Origin: a virus
Direction: 5' to 3' (one strand)
Length of the DNA stretch: 30,100 bases
IMG/VR virus record: IMGVR_UViG_3300021085_000141
Coordinates: 1-30,100 of that record
Shown here: in pieces, positions 1-7,613 of the stretch
How the letters are laid out: every line of letters begins with the position of its first letter
Position numbering within the stretch: position 1 is the stretch's first letter
Program-made: the position numbers and the translations under genes
Notes under the pieces: model-generated
Database searches by the model: none
What the model was told of the DNA's origin: nothing
Seen by the model: the letters and a program-made list of their open reading frames with translations, nothing else

Positions 1-120
1 ACCAAGGGCCGTATTTGTCATATAAATAAGGGGTCCGGTAACAGTTATGGGCACTGCTACGCACCTTATTTTATGGGCGCTGCAGGTGCTGCGACATGCC
101 GCGAAAATGCCGCCAGATCT

Positions 121-186
121 CTATTTATTCCCTACCGTTTTCGCATGGTTTCCCTACCGTTTTCCTACGGTTTCCCTGCAGTTTTC
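121..186. repeat. Six tandem 11-bp imperfect repeats
   Basis: Six consecutive 11-mers can be read: CTATTTATTCC, CTACCGTTTTC, GCATGGTTTCC, CTACCGTTTTC, CTACGGTTTCC and CTGCAGTTTTC. Units 2 and 4 are identical, and the others share the CTACCGTTTYC pattern with a pyrimidine-rich right half. The 11-bp period is close to one helical turn, so a protein binding each unit would lie along one DNA face. Possible roles are an array like the short repeats at T7 ends, a repressor or replication binding site, or arm sites for recombination. The sequence does not decide between them. Confidence 0.75.
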
Positions 187-403
187 GATAGGTCCAGCAA
201 GGCGTGCAAATCACCCTGCAAATCACCTGCAGAAACTGCGAGTAAATCGCGGTTAGACCTTCAAGTATTTTGTGGGTTTATCCCAATTTTCGATAGATCT
301 TATCGTGATTTTAAAATTTTTTATTATTGCATTTTAGCCATATTTTATTGGGGTTATCTATCGTTTTTTTGTGTTCTTTGCTGGTCATGGTGTAAATTTA
401 TTG

Positions 404-432
404 TTGACGGTCTAATCATATGCGAATAGATA
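404..432 (+). promoter_or_regulatory. Possible host-type promoter for early genes
   Basis: TTGACG at 404-409 matches five of six bases of a sigma-70 -35 box. Seventeen bases later lies TAGATA (427-432), a weak -10; GATAAT at 429-434 is closer to consensus but sits 19 bases away. The first gene starts at 463 with a good ribosome binding site. Early genes of T7-like phages are read by host RNA polymerase, so a promoter is expected here. The -10 is poor and this remains a candidate. Confidence 0.4.
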
Positions 433-462
433 ATTGGTCACATTCACGAGAAAGGTGACACA

Positions 463-657
463 ATGAAACAGGTTCTACTCAAGCAAGTTAAGCAAGGCGA
501 AACATTCAAGCGCAAGGCAGACGCCAAGCACGAGTTTGTGCGTAATCACTATAACCGCAAGGACATGTTTGGACCTGCAAATTACTCTTGCACCAATTGG
601 GACACGGGAAACGAGATATTTCTTAAACCCACCACACCAGTATTTATTGACGTTTAA
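463..657 (+). CDS. Small early protein, 64 aa, unknown function
   Basis: This is the first gene of the window. ATG 463 follows GAGAAAGGTG at a good distance. The product is small and basic at its N-terminus (KQVKQGETFKRKADAKHEF), with aromatic residues and one cysteine in the second half and a hydrophobic end (PVFIDV). The arrangement 'K-x-Q-G-E-x-F-K-R-K-A-D-A-K' followed by 'Y-S-C' resembles short uncharacterised proteins I associate with marine phages, but I cannot name a function. As the first gene after the leader and a possible host promoter, it is probably expressed immediately after infection. No membrane segment or signal peptide is seen. Confidence 0.75.
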   Translation: MKQVLLKQVKQGETFKRKADAKHEFVRNHYNRKDMFGPANYSCTNWDTGNEIFLKPTTPVFIDV

Positions 658-681
658 TCTAACCCTGAAAGGTAAATAACC

Positions 682-1452
682 ATGAAAACTCTATCAAAAA
701 CAGAAATTGCAATTGCCAACGCTAAAACAGTTTTCGGCAATCGTGTTAAGCAAGCCAGCCGCGACACAATGGGCAAAACCGAATTGCTTATAAAACGTTC
801 AACAAACGTCAAGCTTGGTAAGACAATCACAAAAGGCAAATTTACAGGCTTTCCGATTTACACCTTGACGCTGGAAGAGCGTGCTACCTGCCCTCGCTCT
901 TGTGCTCATTGGGCTGATTGCTATGGCAATAACATGATGTACGCCTACCGGTATCAAGCAGGCCCTGCCCTTGAAGCAATGCTGGAAACCGAATTGACAG
1001 AATTGCAGCGCAAACACCCTGCAGGTTTCATGGTTCGCTTGCATATTCTAGGCGATTTCTACAGCGTTTCATATGTTGCAAAATGGGCATCTTGGCTTGG
1101 CAAATTCCCAGCCCTTCATATCTATGGTTATACTGCAAACCAGCCCAATGCGGATGACAAGCAAGAACGCGAAATAGGCCAAGCTATCCTATCACTTCGC
1201 AATGCTTGCCCCGATAGGTTTGCAATCCGCTTTTCCGGTAATTTTGACGATGCAACATGGACCGCGAATTCATACGACGATCAGCGCGCCGTTGCTGCAG
1301 TACAAGCCAAGCAAGCGTTCTTGTGCCCTACGCAAATCAGCAAGGCCACAGGCAAATATGCCAAGAAAGACGAGGAAACGCTTGTGCCTGACTGTGGTGC
1401 CTGTGGTCTATGCTGGACCGCGAAGAAACCTGTTGTTTTCATCACTCATTAA
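682..1452 (+). CDS. GP88-like cysteine-rich phage protein
   Basis: The 256-aa product has two cysteine groups: C70-x3-C74-x5-C80 followed by Y81, and C215 with C238-x2-C241-x2-C244. Between them are HILGDF (121-126) and HIYGYT (146-151), giving alternating strand motifs like those of TIM-barrel, radical-SAM-like proteins. This arrangement resembles the phage family named Gene product 88 and is reminiscent of the Gp37/Gp68 group. The cysteines suggest Fe-S or zinc binding, which is inference. The start at 682 is preceded by GAAAGG in a leader (TCTAACCCTGAAAGG) that recurs elsewhere in the window. It is the largest gene of the early cluster. No substrate or partner can be named. Family assignment is moderately sure. 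Confidence 0.65.
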   Translation: MKTLSKTEIAIANAKTVFGNRVKQASRDTMGKTELLIKRSTNVKLGKTITKGKFTGFPIYTLTLEERATCPRSCAHWADCYGNNMMYAYRYQAGPALEAMLETELTELQRKHPAGFMVRLHILGDFYSVSYVAKWASWLGKFPALHIYGYTANQPNADDKQEREIGQAILSLRNACPDRFAIRFSGNFDDATWTANSYDDQRAVAAVQAKQAFLCPTQISKATGKYAKKDEETLVPDCGACGLCWTAKKPVVFITH

Positions 1453-1482
1453 TGTAATCTAACTGATATCGAAAGGTACCCA

Positions 1483-1581
1483 ATGCTGATTTTTATTCGT
1501 GAATTTATAGGGTTTGGACTGTTTACGGTCCTTATCTTTCACCTGCCCCAAATCATTCAAACCATAGGAAGGCTAATCTAA
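1483..1581 (+). CDS. 32-aa single-span membrane peptide
   Basis: A short frame starts at ATG 1483 after GAAAGG (1471-1476) and ends in a TAA whose last A is the A of the next gene's ATG (TAATG at 1579-1583). The peptide begins MLIFIREFIGFG and is hydrophobic over residues 3-27 with a few charges, so one membrane span is likely. The same recurring leader (TCTAAC, short spacer, GAAAGG) precedes it, which supports translation. Small early membrane peptides in phages often affect the host envelope or superinfection, but no specific role can be assigned. Confidence 0.6.
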   Translation: MLIFIREFIGFGLFTVLIFHLPQIIQTIGRLI

Positions 1582-1799
1582 TGATACCGCCAAAAACCCT
1601 AAAGGGCCGCAAGGTCCAATCAATCAAATATCGCGGCGCTGGAAGCCATTGGTGCATACTGTTCAACCCACTACGCGAGGACAAGCAATACTGCTTTGCA
1701 GCTTGGTATGGTGGGCGTGATTTTGACCCAATTGGTCACTACGACACCGCTGCAGAAATCTTTCACATCTATGGTGCTGGGGGATGGCTAAACAGATGA
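1581..1799 (+). CDS. Hypothetical protein, 72 aa
   Basis: This gene is translationally coupled to the membrane peptide upstream (TAATG) and has its own AGGAAGG at 1566-1572 inside that gene. The product has a basic N-terminus (PPKTLKGRKVQSIKYRG), then a tryptophan- and tyrosine-rich core (HWCILFNP, YCFAAWYGGRDFDPIGHY). It looks like a small folded domain of mainly beta character. I do not recognise the family. The end overlaps the start of the next gene (ATGA). Its place in the coupled early cluster suggests a host-takeover or accessory role, which is inference. Confidence 0.65.
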   Translation: MIPPKTLKGRKVQSIKYRGAGSHWCILFNPLREDKQYCFAAWYGGRDFDPIGHYDTAAEIFHIYGAGGWLNR

Positions 1800-2008
1800 C
1801 CATTTATCTTTACGCAGGTTTTGACCGCGCCAAGCCACTCGCAATCTTGTGCAATCTATCACGCCAAAAGCAAATGGCAGAAGCAAGAAAACTGTCACGC
1901 CAGCACGGTCTCATAACGGCGCGTGATTGCTTAGGCGGTCTTCGCTTCGAGGTGCGGCGCGATGCTGCAGAACCCCACAAGGTCAAGGTGACGCCCTATG
2001 GCCGGTAA
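1796..2008 (+). CDS. Hypothetical protein, 70 aa
   Basis: The start is ambiguous. ATG 1796 overlaps the upstream TGA (ATGA) and gives MTIYLYAGFD; ATG 1784, after GGGGG, adds MAKQ. I prefer 1796 because most junctions in this cluster use stop-start overlap. The product is basic (RQKQMAEARKLSRQHG, then FEVRRDAAEPHKVKVTP), beginning with a beta-like strand and then an amphipathic helix. It may bind nucleic acid, but no known motif is visible. Its end overlaps the next small gene by 11 bases. Confidence 0.6.
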   Translation: MTIYLYAGFDRAKPLAILCNLSRQKQMAEARKLSRQHGLITARDCLGGLRFEVRRDAAEPHKVKVTPYGR

Positions 2009-2105
2009 AACTTACTCATATGACCTGACCCATAACCTATGGCTGGACCCAAAAACCGGCGAGCCATTAAACCCACAGCCAACCCATGAGGAGCTAAAAA
2101 AATGA
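1998..2105 (+). CDS. 35-aa hypothetical peptide
   Basis: ATG 1998 lies inside the end of the preceding gene, and the frame ends in TGA 2103-2105, which overlaps the next ATG (2102) as ATGA. The peptide starts MAGKTYSYDLTHNLWLDP and is polar, with several prolines and no hydrophobic segment. The upstream Shine-Dalgarno sequence is weak (AAGGTG at 1985-1990). The main support is the exact filling of the gap between two coupled genes. Function is unknown. Confidence 0.5.
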   Translation: MAGKTYSYDLTHNLWLDPKTGEPLNPQPTHEELKK

Positions 2106-2482
2106 AACTTTACACAAACAATCAAGGCGAGTGGACAGGCACGCAAGCTGATGCCCGAAAGCAGTTTAAAAATGCCATGCGGATTGTAGAGGTGCCAACA
2201 GACAAGCCTAGCTTGCTGGCGTTCCTCAATGATAATGCGGTGGGTTCCTTCGAGGCTCTAGGTCACAAGCCAGAGCCAGAGGAAGAGCCTCTAAGGTTTA
2301 AGATGACACATGGCCCTGATGGGGATGTGCGCCTATCAAGGCAGCTTAACCCTGACTGCAAGCCACACCGCTGGGATACCATCAGGCAGTGCGCAGAACA
2401 GGCATCATTCAAAGATCTTGGCGTTGCTCTGGCAGTACTGATGAACAGGCTCGACGAGGCTGCAGATAAGGAATGCAAATAA
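2102..2482 (+). CDS. Hypothetical protein, 126 aa
   Basis: The start at 2102 is coupled to the upstream peptide by ATGA and preceded by GAGGAGC at 2088-2094, a strong ribosome binding site. The product begins MKLYTNNQGEWTGTQADARK, has an acidic, proline-containing linker (KPEPEEEP, about residues 56-63), then a basic middle and a C-terminal helix rich in Ala and Leu (LGVALAVLMNRLDEA). This could be two small domains joined by a linker. I cannot name the family. It continues the coupled early cluster and joins the next gene through TAATG. Confidence 0.7.
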   Translation: MKLYTNNQGEWTGTQADARKQFKNAMRIVEVPTDKPSLLAFLNDNAVGSFEALGHKPEPEEEPLRFKMTHGPDGDVRLSRQLNPDCKPHRWDTIRQCAEQASFKDLGVALAVLMNRLDEAADKECK

Positions 2483-2634
2483 TGGATATCAATCTACACC
2501 TTGAGTATGACCGCAAGAAAGTCATGTGGACTGTCTGGAATATCACCAACCATTCTGAGTTTATGGTTAAATTTAATGACAGGGATGACGCCATAGAATT
2601 TATGGTCAGGATGATTGCAGAGGTCAAATCCTGA
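2482..2634 (+). CDS. 50-aa hypothetical protein
   Basis: The frame starts at ATG 2482 in a TAATG junction and ends in TGA 2632-2634, which overlaps the next ATG (TGATG). The product begins MDINLHLEYDRKKVMWTVWN and continues with FNDRDDAIEFMVRMIAEV, which looks like beta strands followed by a helix, so a small folded protein is plausible. The upstream sequence GATAAGGAATGC gives a usable AAGGA. I do not recognise the family. Confidence comes from exact stop-start coupling on both sides and a protein-like composition. Confidence 0.6.
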   Translation: MDINLHLEYDRKKVMWTVWNITNHSEFMVKFNDRDDAIEFMVRMIAEVKS

Positions 2635-2789
2635 TGGAGTGGAGCACCCACCTTCAAACCTTTCTGGTCCAGATGTTTGGGCCAGAGAAACCATCACCTC
2701 TGGGCACCAACGAGGCAGAGCAGCGCCCAGATAATAAGCAATCAATTGGCTGGTCACCGTCCTTTGTGGGCGAAGAACCACCATTTTAA
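2634..2789 (+). CDS. 51-aa hypothetical protein, last of early cluster
   Basis: It is coupled to the preceding gene by TGATG at 2632-2636 and ends in TAA at 2787-2789, where the coding density of the early cluster stops. The product starts MEWSTHLQTFLVQMFGPEKP, continues polar and proline-rich and ends in EEPPF. A short amphipathic N-terminal helix is the only visible structure. Function is unknown. The small size and coupling suggest co-translation with the 50-aa protein before it. Confidence 0.5.
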   Translation: MEWSTHLQTFLVQMFGPEKPSPLGTNEAEQRPDNKQSIGWSPSFVGEEPPF

Positions 2790-2871
2790 AAAAAGGTGTT
2801 CCTTTAGGCTTACTTTGAGTTTATTGGGACAGAACACAATAATGGATAATAAAAAAATAAAGGATAATTCT

Positions 2872-3051
2872 ATGCTGAAAAGACTACTAACGACTAAAGT
2901 GAAGATATCGATCAGCGTAGAAAAATTTTGTAAATCTTTGCAGTATCAATTTGATTGCTGGAATGTTACACATTGGTATGGACGATGTGTGCATCTGCAA
3001 TTAGGTAAGCTACATATCTCAATAGATCTTATAGAAAGGTCAAAGCTATGA
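2872..3051 (+). CDS. Possible small basic protein, 59 aa
   Basis: ATG 2872 follows AAGGAT (2861-2866) at a suitable spacing. The product starts MLKRLLTTKVKISISVEKFC and is basic, with four cysteine or histidine-bearing stretches (FDCWNVTHWYGRCVHLQLGKLH). No family is recognised. The AT-rich base composition differs from the dense genes to the left. It may be a small lysogeny or control protein, or it may be a chance frame in a regulatory region. An ATG upstream at 2842 is in the same frame but has no ribosome binding site. Confidence 0.35.
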   Translation: MLKRLLTTKVKISISVEKFCKSLQYQFDCWNVTHWYGRCVHLQLGKLHISIDLIERSKL

Positions 3052-3434
3052 ATATTTTAAACGCTCAAAGAAAAAACCATATGCTTTTCGTATCGCACAC
3101 TTGGTCAATTTCTTATTTAATGAGGAATGCAGGTGCCCACTATCGAAAATTCTTACGGGTATTAAGCAAAAGAATATCACTTACAGGATCGGATTGGGTT
3201 GGTAATGTTATCTGGGGGAGTCCGGTAGTGGCACTGGCCCCACCCTATAAGCGCTGCAACTGGATAAACCGGAATTGCAACTGGATAAACCGGAATTGCA
3301 ACTGGATAAACCGGAATTGCAACTGGATAAACCGAAATCCGAGCGCTCGACTGAGCATTTCTATAGGCGCGGGGGATGCCATGTTAAGCTACCCCACTAT
3401 TAACGAGAAAAAGAATCATGGAAAACCTAGATAA
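3048..3434 (+). CDS. Weak frame running through the 21-bp repeats
   Basis: ATG 3048 overlaps the stop of the preceding weak frame (ATGA) and is preceded by GAAAGG (3035-3040), which is the reason to list it. The 128-aa product has a basic N-terminus and then four copies of the heptapeptide CNWINRN encoded by the 21-bp repeats, with no recognisable domain. Its end overlaps the start of the MarR-like gene by 17 bases. A DNA-level role for the repeats explains the sequence better than this protein does, so I think it is probably not a functional gene. Confidence 0.22.
   Translation: MNILNAQRKNHMLFVSHTWSISYLMRNAGAHYRKFLRVLSKRISLTGSDWVGNVIWGSPVVALAPPYKRCNWINRNCNWINRNCNWINRNCNWINRNPSARLSISIGAGDAMLSYPTINEKKNHGKPR
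3255..3338. repeat. Four tandem 21-bp repeats (iteron- or operator-like)
   Basis: Four head-to-tail copies of a 21-bp unit beginning TGCAACTGGATAAACCGG lie at 3255-3275, 3276-3296, 3297-3317 and 3318-3338. The first three are identical and the fourth differs by one base near its right end (3335, G to A). Twenty-one bases is two helical turns, so copies face the same side of the helix. They end 79 bases before the MarR-like regulator, so operators for that regulator, integrase or excisionase arm sites, or iterons for replication are the main options. There are no spacers, so this is not a CRISPR array. Confidence 0.9.
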
Positions 3435-3750
3435 AATCCAACGATCAATAAGCCTCTTGTCAGAGGTGTACTACAAAGCAACCCTCAACCATGCGCGGAT
3501 CTTTTTGTATATCGCAGCGCGTAACAATAAAATCATAGAAACCCGTGACCTGCCTGATGCGCTTGGTATGACGCAGACAACGATCAACAGGTGCATGAAT
3601 TCAATGGCAGATCGAAGCTACATACATGACGAGGGGTTTGGTATTCTTCGTGTTGAGATAAACCCAGAAGACAATAGACAACGCCTTGTGTCTCTCACTA
3701 CGAGGGGCAAAGCTTTAGCTAATAAAATGATGGAGATAATCTATGACTGA
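3418..3750 (+). CDS. MarR-like winged-helix transcription regulator
   Basis: The 110-aa product has the MarR-type layout: an N-terminal helix (DKIQRSISLLSEVYYKATL), a helix-turn-helix at about 43-65 with LGMTQTTINRCMNSMADRSY, and a wing ending in EDNRQRLVSLTTRGKAL (84-100), which matches the D-x-R...V-x-L-T-x-x-G pattern of the family. A C-terminal dimer helix follows. It is short for MarR (usually about 140 aa). The gene overlaps the integrase by 8 bases, so the two are likely co-transcribed, and the 21-bp repeats lie just upstream. A role in controlling integrase expression or the lysis-lysogeny decision is inference from position. The family call is fairly sure. Confidence 0.75.
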   Translation: MENLDKIQRSISLLSEVYYKATLNHARIFLYIAARNNKIIETRDLPDALGMTQTTINRCMNSMADRSYIHDEGFGILRVEINPEDNRQRLVSLTTRGKALANKMMEIIYD

Positions 3751-4816
3751 TTTACCTAAAGGAATCATAAAGCGCGGTGACAAATACCGCGTGTCCACAA
3801 TGGTGCGCGGGGCGAGGAAGACAGCCACCTGCAGCACCCTAGAAATCGCAACGCAAACCCTAGAGCAGTTCAAGTTAGGGCTGCTCGAACAGGCCAAGGA
3901 GCAGCACAAGACTTGGACCTTGGCGCAAGCTTGGGATGCTTACGTTGACTACAGGCTGGCGAAGACTACAGCCAAGCACACGGTGAACAAGAAGAAGTTC
4001 AAGTGGTACGGCAAGGTTCTCTTCGAGTTCTTTGGACCTAACCTGTCACTGGATGATATCACCCAGCAAAAGACGATGAGCTTTTATGATGAACTAACCC
4101 TAATCAGAAAGTATTCTGCAAGTGTGACTAATTACTTTAGCAGTCTACTCTATGGGATGCAGTTGTTTGCCTTCGAGCGAGGCAGGAAGCTGACCACACC
4201 GCATAGAATGAAGAGCCGTAAGCTGACCAAGGGTCGAGTGCGTTTCTTGACACCAGAGGAAGAGCTACAGGCTATCGAGTGGTACGCCTCAACGGGCCGT
4301 GATGCCCAGCTAGATCTGTTCTGCTTCTACGTTGACACAGGGCTGCGTAAGAGCGAGGCATTCAGGCTCAAGTTTGATGACATCGATATCAAGACAGGTC
4401 GCATCACGATCTGGGAAACCAAGACGAACCAGCCGCGCAGCGTTAAGATGACTGCGAGGGTCAAGCAGATCATACTGCGCCGCTATGCTGCCCGTAGCTC
4501 AATCGGTGAGCGCGTCTTTGGGGATGTGGCAGAGCGTAGGTTCTATCGTGATTGGATAGAGATGCGCGAGGCTATAGGGCTGGGGCATGACCACCAGTTC
4601 GTCATACACATGCTGCGACACACCTGTTGCACTCGACTTCTGAGCGCAGGTGTAGACATCAGAACCACCATGCAGTGGATGGGCCATACATCTATTGAGA
4701 TGACCCAACGCTATGCACATTTCATCCCCAAGAATATGGATGATGCGGCTGGAGCATTGGATTCATTGACACCCACTACTGTTACCAATAACAGTAACGT
4801 CACGAGCTTGTTCTAG
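3743..4816 (+). CDS. int: Tyrosine integrase (site-specific recombinase)
   Basis: This 357-aa protein catalyses integration of phage DNA at a host attachment site through a covalent 3'-phosphotyrosine link. The catalytic set is visible: R202 in GLRKSE, K227 in the beta-hairpin (ETKTNQPR), H289 and R292 in HMLRH, H315 in GHTS and Y324 in QRYAHF. Residues 1-45 look like an arm-binding domain and about 57-150 like the core-binding SAM-like domain. The length is normal for phage integrases. It overlaps the MarR-like gene and is followed at once by phased GTGGTGYA repeats and a terminator. An intact catalytic set means this T7-like phage is probably able to lysogenise. Confidence 0.95.
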   Translation: MTDLPKGIIKRGDKYRVSTMVRGARKTATCSTLEIATQTLEQFKLGLLEQAKEQHKTWTLAQAWDAYVDYRLAKTTAKHTVNKKKFKWYGKVLFEFFGPNLSLDDITQQKTMSFYDELTLIRKYSASVTNYFSSLLYGMQLFAFERGRKLTTPHRMKSRKLTKGRVRFLTPEEELQAIEWYASTGRDAQLDLFCFYVDTGLRKSEAFRLKFDDIDIKTGRITIWETKTNQPRSVKMTARVKQIILRRYAARSSIGERVFGDVAERRFYRDWIEMREAIGLGHDHQFVIHMLRHTCCTRLLSAGVDIRTTMQWMGHTSIEMTQRYAHFIPKNMDDAAGALDSLTPTTVTNNSNVTSLF

Positions 4817-4817
4817 A

Positions 4818-4858
4818 GTGGTGCATTTGTGGTGCATAAGTGGTGTAGACGTACACCA
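4818..4858. repeat. Three 11-bp-phased GTGGTGYA repeats plus an inverted copy
   Basis: Just after the integrase stop, GTGGTGCA occurs at 4818-4825 and 4829-4836 and GTGGTGTA at 4840-4847, each exactly 11 bases apart. An inverted copy, TACACCA (4852-4858), pairs with TGGTGTA (4841-4847) around GACG. Phased direct repeats next to an integrase gene are typical of arm-type binding sites of tyrosine integrases. The function is inference; the repeats are directly visible. Confidence 0.7.
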
Positions 4859-4959
4859 TTCTGCTATAGTTCCTGTTTCTTTTCAGGGGCTTAGGGTATT
4901 GGTAGCAGTAGCCTTCACTGATACCCCCACAAATCATATTAAATCGTTAGCGATTAGAT
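4859..4959. other. Structured non-coding stretch, candidate attP neighbourhood
   Basis: No gene is supported here. GGGTAT (4894-4899) can pair with ATACCC (4921-4926), extended by CAGT/ACTG inside, and AATCG-TTAG-CGATT (4942-4955) is a perfect short inverted repeat. In temperate T7-like marine phages attP usually lies beside the integrase, so the crossover core may be here. I see no tRNA 3' end (no TTCGAATCC-type sequence), so the core cannot be fixed from sequence alone. Confidence 0.35.
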
Positions 4960-5009
4960 CCACCGGACACCTGTTTTTTATAGCCATGTCCGGTGGGTCT
5001 TTTCATTTC
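4960..5009 (+). terminator. Terminator after integrase
   Basis: CCACCGGACA (4960-4969) and TGTCCGGTGG (4987-4996) form a perfect 10-bp stem with a 17-base T-rich loop, followed by GTCTTTTCATTTC. This looks like a Rho-independent terminator that separates the lysogeny module from the phage-promoter-driven RNA polymerase gene. The long loop is slightly unusual. Confidence 0.75.
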
Positions 5010-5086
5010 TACAATTCTAACCCGAATGGCACATTTGTTGTACCGTTTACACCAATCCACCCCGCAACCTTTTGCACCAACGGTCC

Positions 5087-5107
5087 GATTAGGTTGCACC
5101 TTAGTTC
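5087..5107 (+). promoter_or_regulatory. Phage RNA polymerase promoter before gene 1
   Basis: GATTAGGTTGCACCTTAG begins at 5087, 49 bases before the RNA polymerase start. The core TTAGGTTGCACC recurs upstream of the replication block and, with one change each, upstream of the ssDNA-binding protein block and the virion block. It resembles the SP6 promoter ATTTAGGTGACACTATAG in position and base pattern. It would allow the polymerase to amplify its own transcription. Confidence 0.65.
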
Positions 5108-5135
5108 AAACCCTTAGTTTTATAGGAAAAACAGA

Positions 5136-7613
5136 ATGACAAACGATCTGTACCTTACACAAGAAGTCCTTGAAAAAGAGGCACGTTCACTCACCCTTCA
5201 ACGCTTTGAGAATGCAATGACTGACAAGGTTCAAGGCCACGAAGAGAGTGCTACCTACTACGGCGCACCCCTGATGAAGCGAGCTATCGAACCAATGGTT
5301 GAACGAATCAATCAGGTGATGGCTGAAGCGCAGTCTGGAAAGGCTGGGCCTAAGATGGGCGCTGTCACTTACCTGCAGCTATTCGATCCAAAGGTGGTGG
5401 CGTTCTTCACTGCCAAGACAATCATCGACAAGCTGTCGAGCAGGTCCAACAAGATCCAAACGGTTGCCAATTGGATCGGCAAGGCCCTTGAAGATGAGCT
5501 TCGCTATGCCAAGTTTGAGGAGCAGCACCCTTGGCTGTTCGTGAAGCTACTTAATGAGATCGATACAACCCGTAAGCGCAAGCGCATAAACTTGGTCAGT
5601 GCTTACAACCGATACTGTGATGAGTGGGTGTCATGGGGTGACGATCAACGTGTTCACCTTGGCATGTTGCTGATCGAAATCTTTATGTCCACTACTGGCT
5701 TCGTTGAAATCCACACAAAGAAGCTGGACAAGAACAAGACCGTGAAGATCTTGGTGCCATCTGCAGAGGTGATTAATTTCATGGAAAAAAATCGTGATGC
5801 TGCATCGATGTTGAACCCTGTCTACCTGCCAATGGTGGTTCCACCTGTTGATTGGGGTGGACCTCGCGGTGGTGGATATCTAACGCACCATGTGAAACCC
5901 CTGACCTTCATCAAAACTGGAAACAGGAACTACCTCGAAGAACTCGAAGGGATTCCAGAACAGATGGCCCCTGTCTACGAAGCTATCAACCACATCCAAC
6001 GCACCCCTTGGCAGGTGAACCCTTTCGTTCTTGTCACATTCCAGATGGTTCACGATAGAGGTCTGGCTGTAGGTGGACTGCCCAGCGCAGATGATATCCC
6101 CCTGCCCCCATCACCTCTGACTGCAGATCAGGATAGCAGCAAGCTAACTGAAGCTCAGAAGGCAGAGTTTAAGGCTTGGAAATCACGGGCCACTCAGATC
6201 TATGAGGAAAAGATTAGGCTTCGATCAAAACGGTTGATGGCTGCAAAGATCCGACAGATTGCTGAGAAGTTTGTGGTTTATGATGCACTCTACATGCCAC
6301 ACACTCTGGATTTCAGAGGCAGAGCTTATCCCTCACCCATGTACCTGAACCCACAGGGCAACAGCCTTGCTAAGGGCTTGCTCCGGTTCGCTGATGGTAA
6401 ACCTCTGGGAACCAACGAGGCTGCATGTGAACTCGCTATCCACGGGGCAAATTGCTACGGCTATGACAAGGCCAGTATGCAGGAGCGTGTTGATTGGGTG
6501 GTAGAGAACCAAGAGCGTATCCTACAGGCTGGCAGTGACCCGATGGCTGACCTCTGGTGGGCTAAGGAATCTGATGATGCTTGGTCTTTTCTTGCGTTCT
6601 GTGAAGAGTGGTGTGGCTACTGTGAGAACGGGTATGACCATGTGTCCTACATTGCAGTGGCAAAGGATGGCTCATGCTCTGGCTTGCAGCACTTCTCAGC
6701 GCAGCTTGCTGACCCTGTTGGTGGTGCTGCAGTAAACCTCACGCCCTCTGATAGACCTGCAGATATTTACCAAGCTGTCATCGATAAAGTTATCGTAAAA
6801 GTACAGGCAGATCTAACCCGAAACGATTTTAATTTGAAGGGCATGGCACAAAGCTGGTTGGATTATGGGATGACCCGTAAGACTGCCAAGCGTTGTACTA
6901 TGACACGGGTTTATGGTTCGACGTTGTACTCAGCGAGGGCATTTGTACAGGAGTACATCACTGAGACAGATGAGAAGCGTAAGCAAGAAGACCCTGCGTA
7001 TGTCAGCCCCCTGCATGAGCGTGAGTTTCAGGCTTCAATCTACTTAGCCAAGCATGTCTGGGATTCAATCAACGAGACAGTGATTGCTGCCAAGGATGGG
7101 ATGGATTGGCTGCAAGAATGTGCCCGTGAACTAGCCAGCGAAAACCTACCGATTGTATGGACCACCATCGATGGGTTGCCCGTGATGCAAAACTACCCTG
7201 ACATGGCGAAGCGTAGGCTCAAGACCAAGTTTGGCGATAAACTTGTTTACCTCACAGTCCAAGAAGAAATTAAGAACAAGCTGGACCGCCGCCGTGCATC
7301 CAACGGGTGTTCTCCTAATTGGGTGCATGGAAATGATGGGTGTCACCTTCGCATGACTGTGAACCTAGCCCGTCACAATGGAGTCACTCACTTTGCAATG
7401 GTGCATGATAGCTTTGGTTGCCATGCGGCTGACGTTGAGATGCTTGGCGCTTGCTTGAGGGAAACCTTCATCGAACTCTACCATGACAACAATCCCTTCG
7501 AGCGTTTCAAGGCAGAGGGGGAAGCCCTGCTAGGTCGTGAGTTACCACCTTGCCCAGCTAAGGGTGAACTGGATGTCACTGAGGTACGTCATTCGGAATT
7601 CTTCTTTGCTTAA
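5136..7613 (+). CDS. T7-like single-subunit DNA-directed RNA polymerase
   Basis: This 825-aa enzyme transcribes the middle and late phage genes from phage-specific promoters. Family motifs are clear: DFRGRAYP (392-399), the first catalytic Asp in KDGSCSGLQHFSA (D511), K585 and Y593 in TRKTAKRCTMTRVYGS, and the second catalytic Asp in MVHDSFG (D758, with H757). The C-terminus ends in EFFFA, like the FAFA foot of T7 polymerase. The length is close to that of T7 (883 aa). ATG 5136 follows TATAGGAAAA. The gene follows the integrase terminator and a matching promoter, the gene 1 position of T7. Its promoters are probably the TTAGGTTGCACC sites in this window. Confidence 0.98.
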   Translation: MTNDLYLTQEVLEKEARSLTLQRFENAMTDKVQGHEESATYYGAPLMKRAIEPMVERINQVMAEAQSGKAGPKMGAVTYLQLFDPKVVAFFTAKTIIDKLSSRSNKIQTVANWIGKALEDELRYAKFEEQHPWLFVKLLNEIDTTRKRKRINLVSAYNRYCDEWVSWGDDQRVHLGMLLIEIFMSTTGFVEIHTKKLDKNKTVKILVPSAEVINFMEKNRDAASMLNPVYLPMVVPPVDWGGPRGGGYLTHHVKPLTFIKTGNRNYLEELEGIPEQMAPVYEAINHIQRTPWQVNPFVLVTFQMVHDRGLAVGGLPSADDIPLPPSPLTADQDSSKLTEAQKAEFKAWKSRATQIYEEKIRLRSKRLMAAKIRQIAEKFVVYDALYMPHTLDFRGRAYPSPMYLNPQGNSLAKGLLRFADGKPLGTNEAACELAIHGANCYGYDKASMQERVDWVVENQERILQAGSDPMADLWWAKESDDAWSFLAFCEEWCGYCENGYDHVSYIAVAKDGSCSGLQHFSAQLADPVGGAAVNLTPSDRPADIYQAVIDKVIVKVQADLTRNDFNLKGMAQSWLDYGMTRKTAKRCTMTRVYGSTLYSARAFVQEYITETDEKRKQEDPAYVSPLHEREFQASIYLAKHVWDSINETVIAAKDGMDWLQECARELASENLPIVWTTIDGLPVMQNYPDMAKRRLKTKFGDKLVYLTVQEEIKNKLDRRRASNGCSPNWVHGNDGCHLRMTVNLARHNGVTHFAMVHDSFGCHAADVEMLGACLRETFIELYHDNNPFERFKAEGEALLGRELPPCPAKGELDVTEVRHSEFFFA

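Follow-up and report, generated by a model that had tools for sequence, protein, structure and literature searches.

The window analysed here, a virus fragment of 30,100 bases, is part of the genome of a marine, integrase-bearing T7-like Roseobacter phage. Its gene set is T7-like and comprises a MarR-like regulator (3418–3750, recognized by a weak Pfam match), a tyrosine integrase, a single-subunit RNA polymerase, a T7-type primase/helicase, endonuclease I, portal and capsid, and its nearest isolates are the Roseobacter phages CRP-361, -114, -125, -227, -171 and -113, with ∼67–72% DNA identity over parts. In an attempt to separate the array described below from the integrase, 14 contigs and three further CRP phages were examined: an integrase match was found in eight of the 14 contigs, the six without one all being partial contigs, and CRP-804, -403 and -118 each carry an annotated integrase (3/3). 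The first early gene (463–657, + strand, 64 aa) is supported by 15 loci with relatives in viral contigs and gave no match in a Pfam search. Upstream of it lies a probable host-type early promoter, TTGACG-17-TAGATA (404–432, + strand), which was read from the sequence and is kept in the aligned relatives; a generic promoter scan did not report it. A probable promoter of the phage RNA polymerase, TTAGGTTGCACCTTAG, precedes the RNA polymerase gene (5089–5104, + strand); its motif recurs in relatives and has three matches with at most three mismatches in the window versus 0.6 expected. By eye, a TCTAA(C/T)-type sequence was seen in early gene gaps, including those of relatives, and in the spacer of the early promoter (window 410–417, 655–664 and 1455–1462).

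Before the early promoter, the window carries a tandem array on the + strand. TRF detects a repeat at 128–187 with a period of 22, 2.7 copies, 84% matches and a score of 85. The 11-mers starting at 121, 132, 143, 154, 165, 176 and 187 match CTACCGTTTTC at 6, 11, 6, 11, 9, 9 and 2 of 11 positions, respectively. The five at 132–186 alternate between strong and weak, beginning and ending with a strong one, and 22 bp is the better unit. The original prediction of six uninterrupted 11-mers at 121–186 thus holds for the repeat itself but not for its count: five units at 132–186 are defensible (CTACCGTTTTC, GCATGGTTTCC, CTACCGTTTTC, CTACGGTTTCC and CTGCAGTTTTC, or a 22-bp repeat in 2.5 copies), and the 11-mer at 121 is weak with its 6/11 matches. 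The 12-bp-spaced copies that had been predicted behind the 11-mers were found as two copies of TGCAAATCACC, 12 bp apart (205–215 and 217–227), followed by a partial third copy, TGCAG, at 228 (205–232 in total, + strand); the aligned relatives retain them, their lengths there differing by 1 bp. A second CTATCGTTTT (358–367, + strand) closes the repeat zone; it is kept in the aligned relatives, and many array-bearing relatives have one likewise.

The copies are regularly spaced on one strand, with lags of 22 and 11. Within window positions 1–470, the self-match reaches 35/44 at lag 22 and 29/44 at lag 11, and none of 2000 dinucleotide shuffles reached either value. Elsewhere in the 30.1 kb, a self-match of at least 33/44 at any lag from 7 to 30 occurs just once, in a coding repeat of 21 bp (3242–3330). 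The single 11-mer pattern with at most two mismatches is only modestly enriched window-wide (30 found versus 18 expected), so that the significance lies in clustering and spacing. An open frame (73–429) spans the array, but a coding reading was rejected, since the sequences of relatives differ across it by indels of 1 bp, and a search over 1–5200 revealed no known RNA family. The 21-bp coding repeat itself has four copies at 3255–3338 inside the frame 3048–3434; it was not found in L010, and at least three copies are present at 12–74 of L008, whose sequence starts nearby.

Among the first-fetched loci, BLAST searches located the array region on three contigs (L010/L011/L030, L026/L012 and L027), and the terminase search added two further carriers, L055 and L056. 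The array is present at the same place in all five aligned relatives, each of which aligns with the window across it. One locus, L058, from the same contig as L026, has exactly one 11-bp unit fewer; other length differences nearby are mostly 1 bp. L010 extends leftward beyond the window and shows the large terminase gene up to 1439, three small frames up to 2240 and then a non-coding stretch with the array from 2466. Thus, the left neighbour is phage and not host, the possibility that the left flank is host chromosome is rejected, and the array sits between the late and early genome ends. This is the place of the T7-type short repeats, between the end of the terminase gene and the first early promoter and gene, and in line with the T7 comparison made in the original prediction, place, order and landmark sequences agree with T7. 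Neither of the two outcomes named there as refuting, relatives without the array at this place or a left flank of host chromosome, was observed. Small proteins encoded behind the terminase gene (L010 1650–1844 and L006 38377–38580) have a DUF1127-like end, in matches (E values of 1.9e-4 and 2.5e-4) that fall short of the Pfam curated cut-off; DUF1127 is a domain of alphaproteobacterial small proteins.

The landmarks to the left of the array resemble those of a T7 direct terminal repeat (DTR). The T7 DTR starts at AAAAATCTGAGTGACTA^TCTCACAG with a gap of 29 nt from CTGAG to TTCCCCC, and by direct count the same gap separates GTGAG from TTCCCCCC in L010, where the left-cut block is at 2237–2248, and GCGAG from TTCCCCCC in LUZ100. 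An automatic search detected this left-cut anchor in five of seven reference phages (T7, T3, gh-1, LUZ100 and BB8; not SP6 and RHEph01) and in 64 of 82 marine junctions, which comprise six CRP genomes and 76 of 80 terminase loci, leaving out L110, L118, L119 and L120 as they end in or at the gene. When the T7 cut positions are applied to L010, a DTR of 220 bp (2248–2467) is predicted; the annotated LUZ100 DTR starts 12 nt to the right of the T7-spaced position, so the exact cut need not match T7. Base 1 of the window aligns to L010 2334 and therefore falls inside the predicted DTR. Together with the left-cut block, the T7 cut positions and the right-edge element described below, this alignment assigns window positions 1–133 (+ strand) to the predicted right part of the repeat (∼133 of 220 bp), the left part being outside the window. 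Hence, the window probably begins near a phage genome end as originally suggested, but most likely ∼86 bp inside the predicted DTR and not at its outer end. For CRP-361, CRP-114 or CRP-125, we predict from sequence a DTR of ∼220 bp whose left end would lie immediately after the AAAAATCTGAGG block and whose right end would be CTACCGTTTT (or CTGCCGTTTT). The ends of the CRP genome records were considered as physical ends and rejected, as no shared terminal sequence was found in any of the six (6/6).

Several other short sequences recur around the predicted DTR. In 13 of 22 junctions, the predicted DTR of relatives contains two TGCACCA-type copies ∼11–12 bp apart, which follow the left-cut anchor on its right at a near-fixed offset of 78–102 nt, and nine of 22 have an inverted copy of the TGGTGCAA type to the right of the junction element; the TGCACCA heptamer is also part of the phage promoter and of repeats behind the integrase gene. 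A dyad, AACAGTT-5-AACTGTT, occurs in the predicted DTRs of L095, L101 and L105 and in degenerate form at 40–59 of the window. It could be a hairpin or a terminase site, and is also a possible rival place for the junction element.

At the right edge, the known DTRs end in CCCT^ATCTGTT in T7 and T3, CCCCTATCTGTC^ in gh-1 and GGGCTA^TCTGTT in SP6, so that four of the seven reference phages have a CTATCTGTT-like right end; the DTR ends of LUZ100, BB8 and RHEph01 are without such an element. An equivalent was searched for in 60 of the 82 junctions, 18 being without the anchor and four too short. The pattern CTRYYGTTTT (searched as CT[AG][CTG][CT]GTTTT) lies 212–263 nt right of the left-cut anchor, with a median of 228, in 44 of these 60 junctions, many of which are closely related and form 23 groups including the window. 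Shuffled segments gave a mean of 0.42 per 60 and a maximum of 3, a comparison to be read with the fact that anchor and element patterns were chosen after some of these sequences had been looked at. The 16 junctions without the strict element include four with other YGTTTT forms (L068, L081, L085 and L089), four with CCTATCGTGT, CCTATTGATTT or CCTATTGCGTTT at that place (L072, L078, L079 and L087), and eight in which no convincing form was found. CRP-804, -403 and -118 have no CTRYYGTTTT (0/3), though their junction has spaced repeats. A pyrimidine-rich lead often precedes the element, as in T7 (TCTCTCTGTGTCC).

The element takes the form CTACCGTTTTC in the window (132–142, + strand) and CTATCGTTTT, CTATTGTTTT or CTACTGTTTT in relatives, and in the window clade it coincides with the first array unit. 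In L010 it lies at 2466. Its resemblance to CTATCTGTT suggests that the array starts with a diverged version of the T7-group junction element. PMC11617373 describes ATCTGTT as the class II signal of the T7 concatemer junction; CTACCGTTTTC is similar, not identical, to this signal of ATCTGTT with a downstream T run.

To the right of the element, Roseobacter-type relatives likewise carry short single-strand-oriented repeats, and a spacing of 10–12 bp recurs there in many marine relatives. Each lineage has its own unit: the window clade has CTRCMGTTTTC, whereas CCTGCCG is found in CRP-114, -227 and -361, CCAACAGG or CCAACAG in L062–L065 and L069, ACCACCAGC in L123, and CCACGCG in CRP-403 and -118. 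In 110 nt from each of 23 non-redundant junctions, Stouffer z values were 8.1 for lag 10, 6.6 for lag 11, 4.6 for lag 20 and 4.0 for lag 21, and without the window 7.7 (lag 10) and 5.8 (lag 11); these values are not independent, as the phages are related. We use the figures for all 23 since the 11-member "array" and 9-member "single-element" groups were picked by eye, the latter nine junctions showing no strong period. As controls, the 110 nt left of the element gave a lag-10 signal about as strong (z 7.6, n = 22), and the stretch 300–410 nt right of the element (n = 22) did not show such a signal. The left-side signal weakens the period test as proof of an array restricted to the right side, and we do not use it as such. 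Period-∼10 repeats of the CTATAGGTA type, with a unit different from that of the array, were seen behind the terminase gene in CRP-227, -361, -171 and -113. Those at L005 38902–38951, L002 38624–38663 and L006 38310–38346 come after a phage promoter-like motif, and may correspond to the repeats that T7 has on the left side of its DTR.

Among phages with exactly known DTRs, T7 shows lag 13 with z 9.3, SP6 lag 12 with z 5.7 and T3, weakly, lag 13 with z 2.1; no clear period was found right of the DTR in gh-1 (only weak values), LUZ100 and BB8. In T7, these are the CCTAAAG copies 13 bp apart at 175–338, between the 160-bp DTR on their left and promoter A1 (498) on their right. Repeats spaced by 10–13 bp thus recur in this region without being universal, and their spacing is not always helical. 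The 11-bp spacing that had originally suggested a row of protein-binding sites is real, yet the argument from helical phasing is weakened by the 13-bp and 12-bp spacing of the T7 and SP6 counterparts.

Based on the repeat, its place, its conservation and the left-cut and right-edge landmarks, we consider it probable that the array marks the concatemer-junction region of a T7-like phage, its first unit forming the right edge of the DTR and the later units together with the TGCAAATCACC copies representing the T7-type short repeats of this lineage. There is good support for the place and class of the array; what we infer beyond this is a bound protein, a function in packaging, the exact cut sites and the pause. 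On our best reading, the array would help the terminase, perhaps together with a paused phage RNA polymerase, to process concatemers. Late in infection, the phage RNA polymerase would start at a promoter that follows the terminase gene and transcribe rightward across the point where two genomes are joined, which is plausible as the TTAGGTTGCACCTTAG motif lies directly behind the terminase gene in relatives, as does the annotated phiOR in T7. The polymerase may then slow at the CTACCGTTTTC element or elements, and a maturation protein, most likely the small terminase subunit, would sit in a row on the regularly spaced repeats. Polymerase and maturation protein could together keep the large terminase subunit in place there, at the junction, where two staggered cuts would be made and the DTR would be duplicated. 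This scheme also draws on the junction mechanism set out in PMC9624206, which is the reason for reading the first unit as junction element and the later units as putative maturation-protein sites. Counting against it are the 16 of 60 junctions and the three further CRP phages without the strict element, the DTR ends of LUZ100, BB8 and RHEph01, which do not have it either, and the lag-10 signal on the left side of the element. Pausing by the polymerase of this phage is not to be assumed, as class II signals have no effect on the RNA polymerase of VSW-3, another T7-like phage.

An unlikely alternative is that the array serves as operator, bound through its phased repeats by the MarR-like protein, another phage regulator or a host protein that controls the early promoter in a temperate phage. 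In line with this, the phage has both a MarR-like gene and an integrase, and one 22-bp pair holds a partial dyad, ACCGT-6-ACGGT; however, this dyad is not conserved in the aligned relatives, and the repeats lie more than 200 bp upstream of the promoter instead of forming dyad-symmetric sites that overlap it. Moreover, T7 and SP6, which are lytic and for which we know of no MarR-type lysis/lysogeny switch, have spaced repeats at the same place. In favour of the operator reading, a MarR-based lysis/lysogeny switch has been proposed for the integrase-bearing T7-like phage LUZ100 (PMC10134795).

We regard it as rather improbable that in this clade the array is the junction pause signal itself multiplied in tandem (CTACCGTTTTC at 132 and 154 and CTGCAGTTTTC at 176, 22 bp apart), at which polymerases would queue or stall repeatedly. 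If true, such a pause-site array would be a device that times terminase cutting and licenses packaging.

It is also improbable, and slightly more so in our estimate, that the repeats are fast-turnover tandem DNA between two useful sites, formed by slippage and bound by no protein, which would persist because it spaces the two sites or is mildly curved. The free variation of unit sequences between lineages, the relative that lost exactly one unit and the nine junctions without an array, as grouped by eye, would all agree with this, as would the TTT/TTTT runs that lie 11 bp apart in the window. However, free slippage would not favour the 10–11 bp spacing that recurs with unrelated units, and arrays of the CCTGCCG and CCAACAGG units do not have the T-run pattern, so that curvature is not a common property.

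Recombination sites, the other option raised originally, are disfavoured: adjacent 11-bp repeats could be integrase arm-type sites of attP in a phage with an integrase, and in some phages the arm sites typically are short repeats next to each other, but we consider this very unlikely. The array is 3.6 kb away from the integrase gene, spaced-repeat counterparts exist in T7 and SP6, for which we know of no integrase, and no prophage or att junction was found among 22 candidate stretches (0/22). Moreover, other 11-bp direct repeats, which contain TGGTGCA, lie directly behind the integrase gene at 4817–4845 of the window and in the corresponding position of CRP-361, -114 and -227, and are themselves candidate arm sites near attP; in T7-like cyanophages, attP is located downstream of the integrase gene (PMC8776855). 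In the three CRP phages, these repeats are at L002 4271–4293, L003 4006–4028 and L005 3992–4014. An iteron-like replication origin near the left end is just as hard to sustain, for although the direct repeats are beside an A/T-rich stretch (∼300–350), no iteron-type initiator was found among ten proteins tested, and T7-like phages are known to start replication at phage promoters.

No description of the ends or repeats of these roseophages was found in the open-licence literature, and the main text of PMC11092137, which describes CRP isolates, has no mention of terminal, repeat, attP or promoter. Among the known systems, the junction regions of the CRP phages -114, -227, -361, -125, -171 and -113 share gene order, left-cut anchor, junction element and place of the repeat zone with that of the window, whereas the CRP units are of the CCTGCCG type or the zones are very short. 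LUZ100 resembles it in left-cut anchor spacing, MarR-like gene and integrase and has an annotated DTR of 244 bp, but has neither such a form of the junction element nor, on the right side of the DTR, any spaced repeats. SP6 has fixed-spacing repeats (lag 12) right of its 174-bp DTR, beside TATCTGTT, with a CCTTAGT-like unit and another spacing, and no left-cut anchor was found in SP6 by pattern.

The short repeats of T7 were reportedly described by Dunn and Studier in 1983, and their role is, to our knowledge, unsettled. As in T7, the array is a series of numerous short copies, all on the same strand and evenly spaced, directly right of the here predicted DTR and before the first host-type promoter, with the terminase gene upstream and a CTAT(C)TGTT-like junction element at the edge. 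In contrast to T7, the spacing is 11 (22) instead of 13 bp, the unit is CTRCMGTTTTC instead of CCTAAAG, the phage bears an integrase, and the array begins with units that resemble duplicates of the junction element. Thus, the array would do what the T7 repeats do, although its unit is not CCTAAAG, and is best read as the T7-type short-repeat feature in a new form with variant unit and spacing. That place and a narrow spacing of 10–13 bp persist while the units change freely between lineages points to spacing as the selected property, and the landmarks give testable genome ends for marine integrase-bearing T7-like phages.
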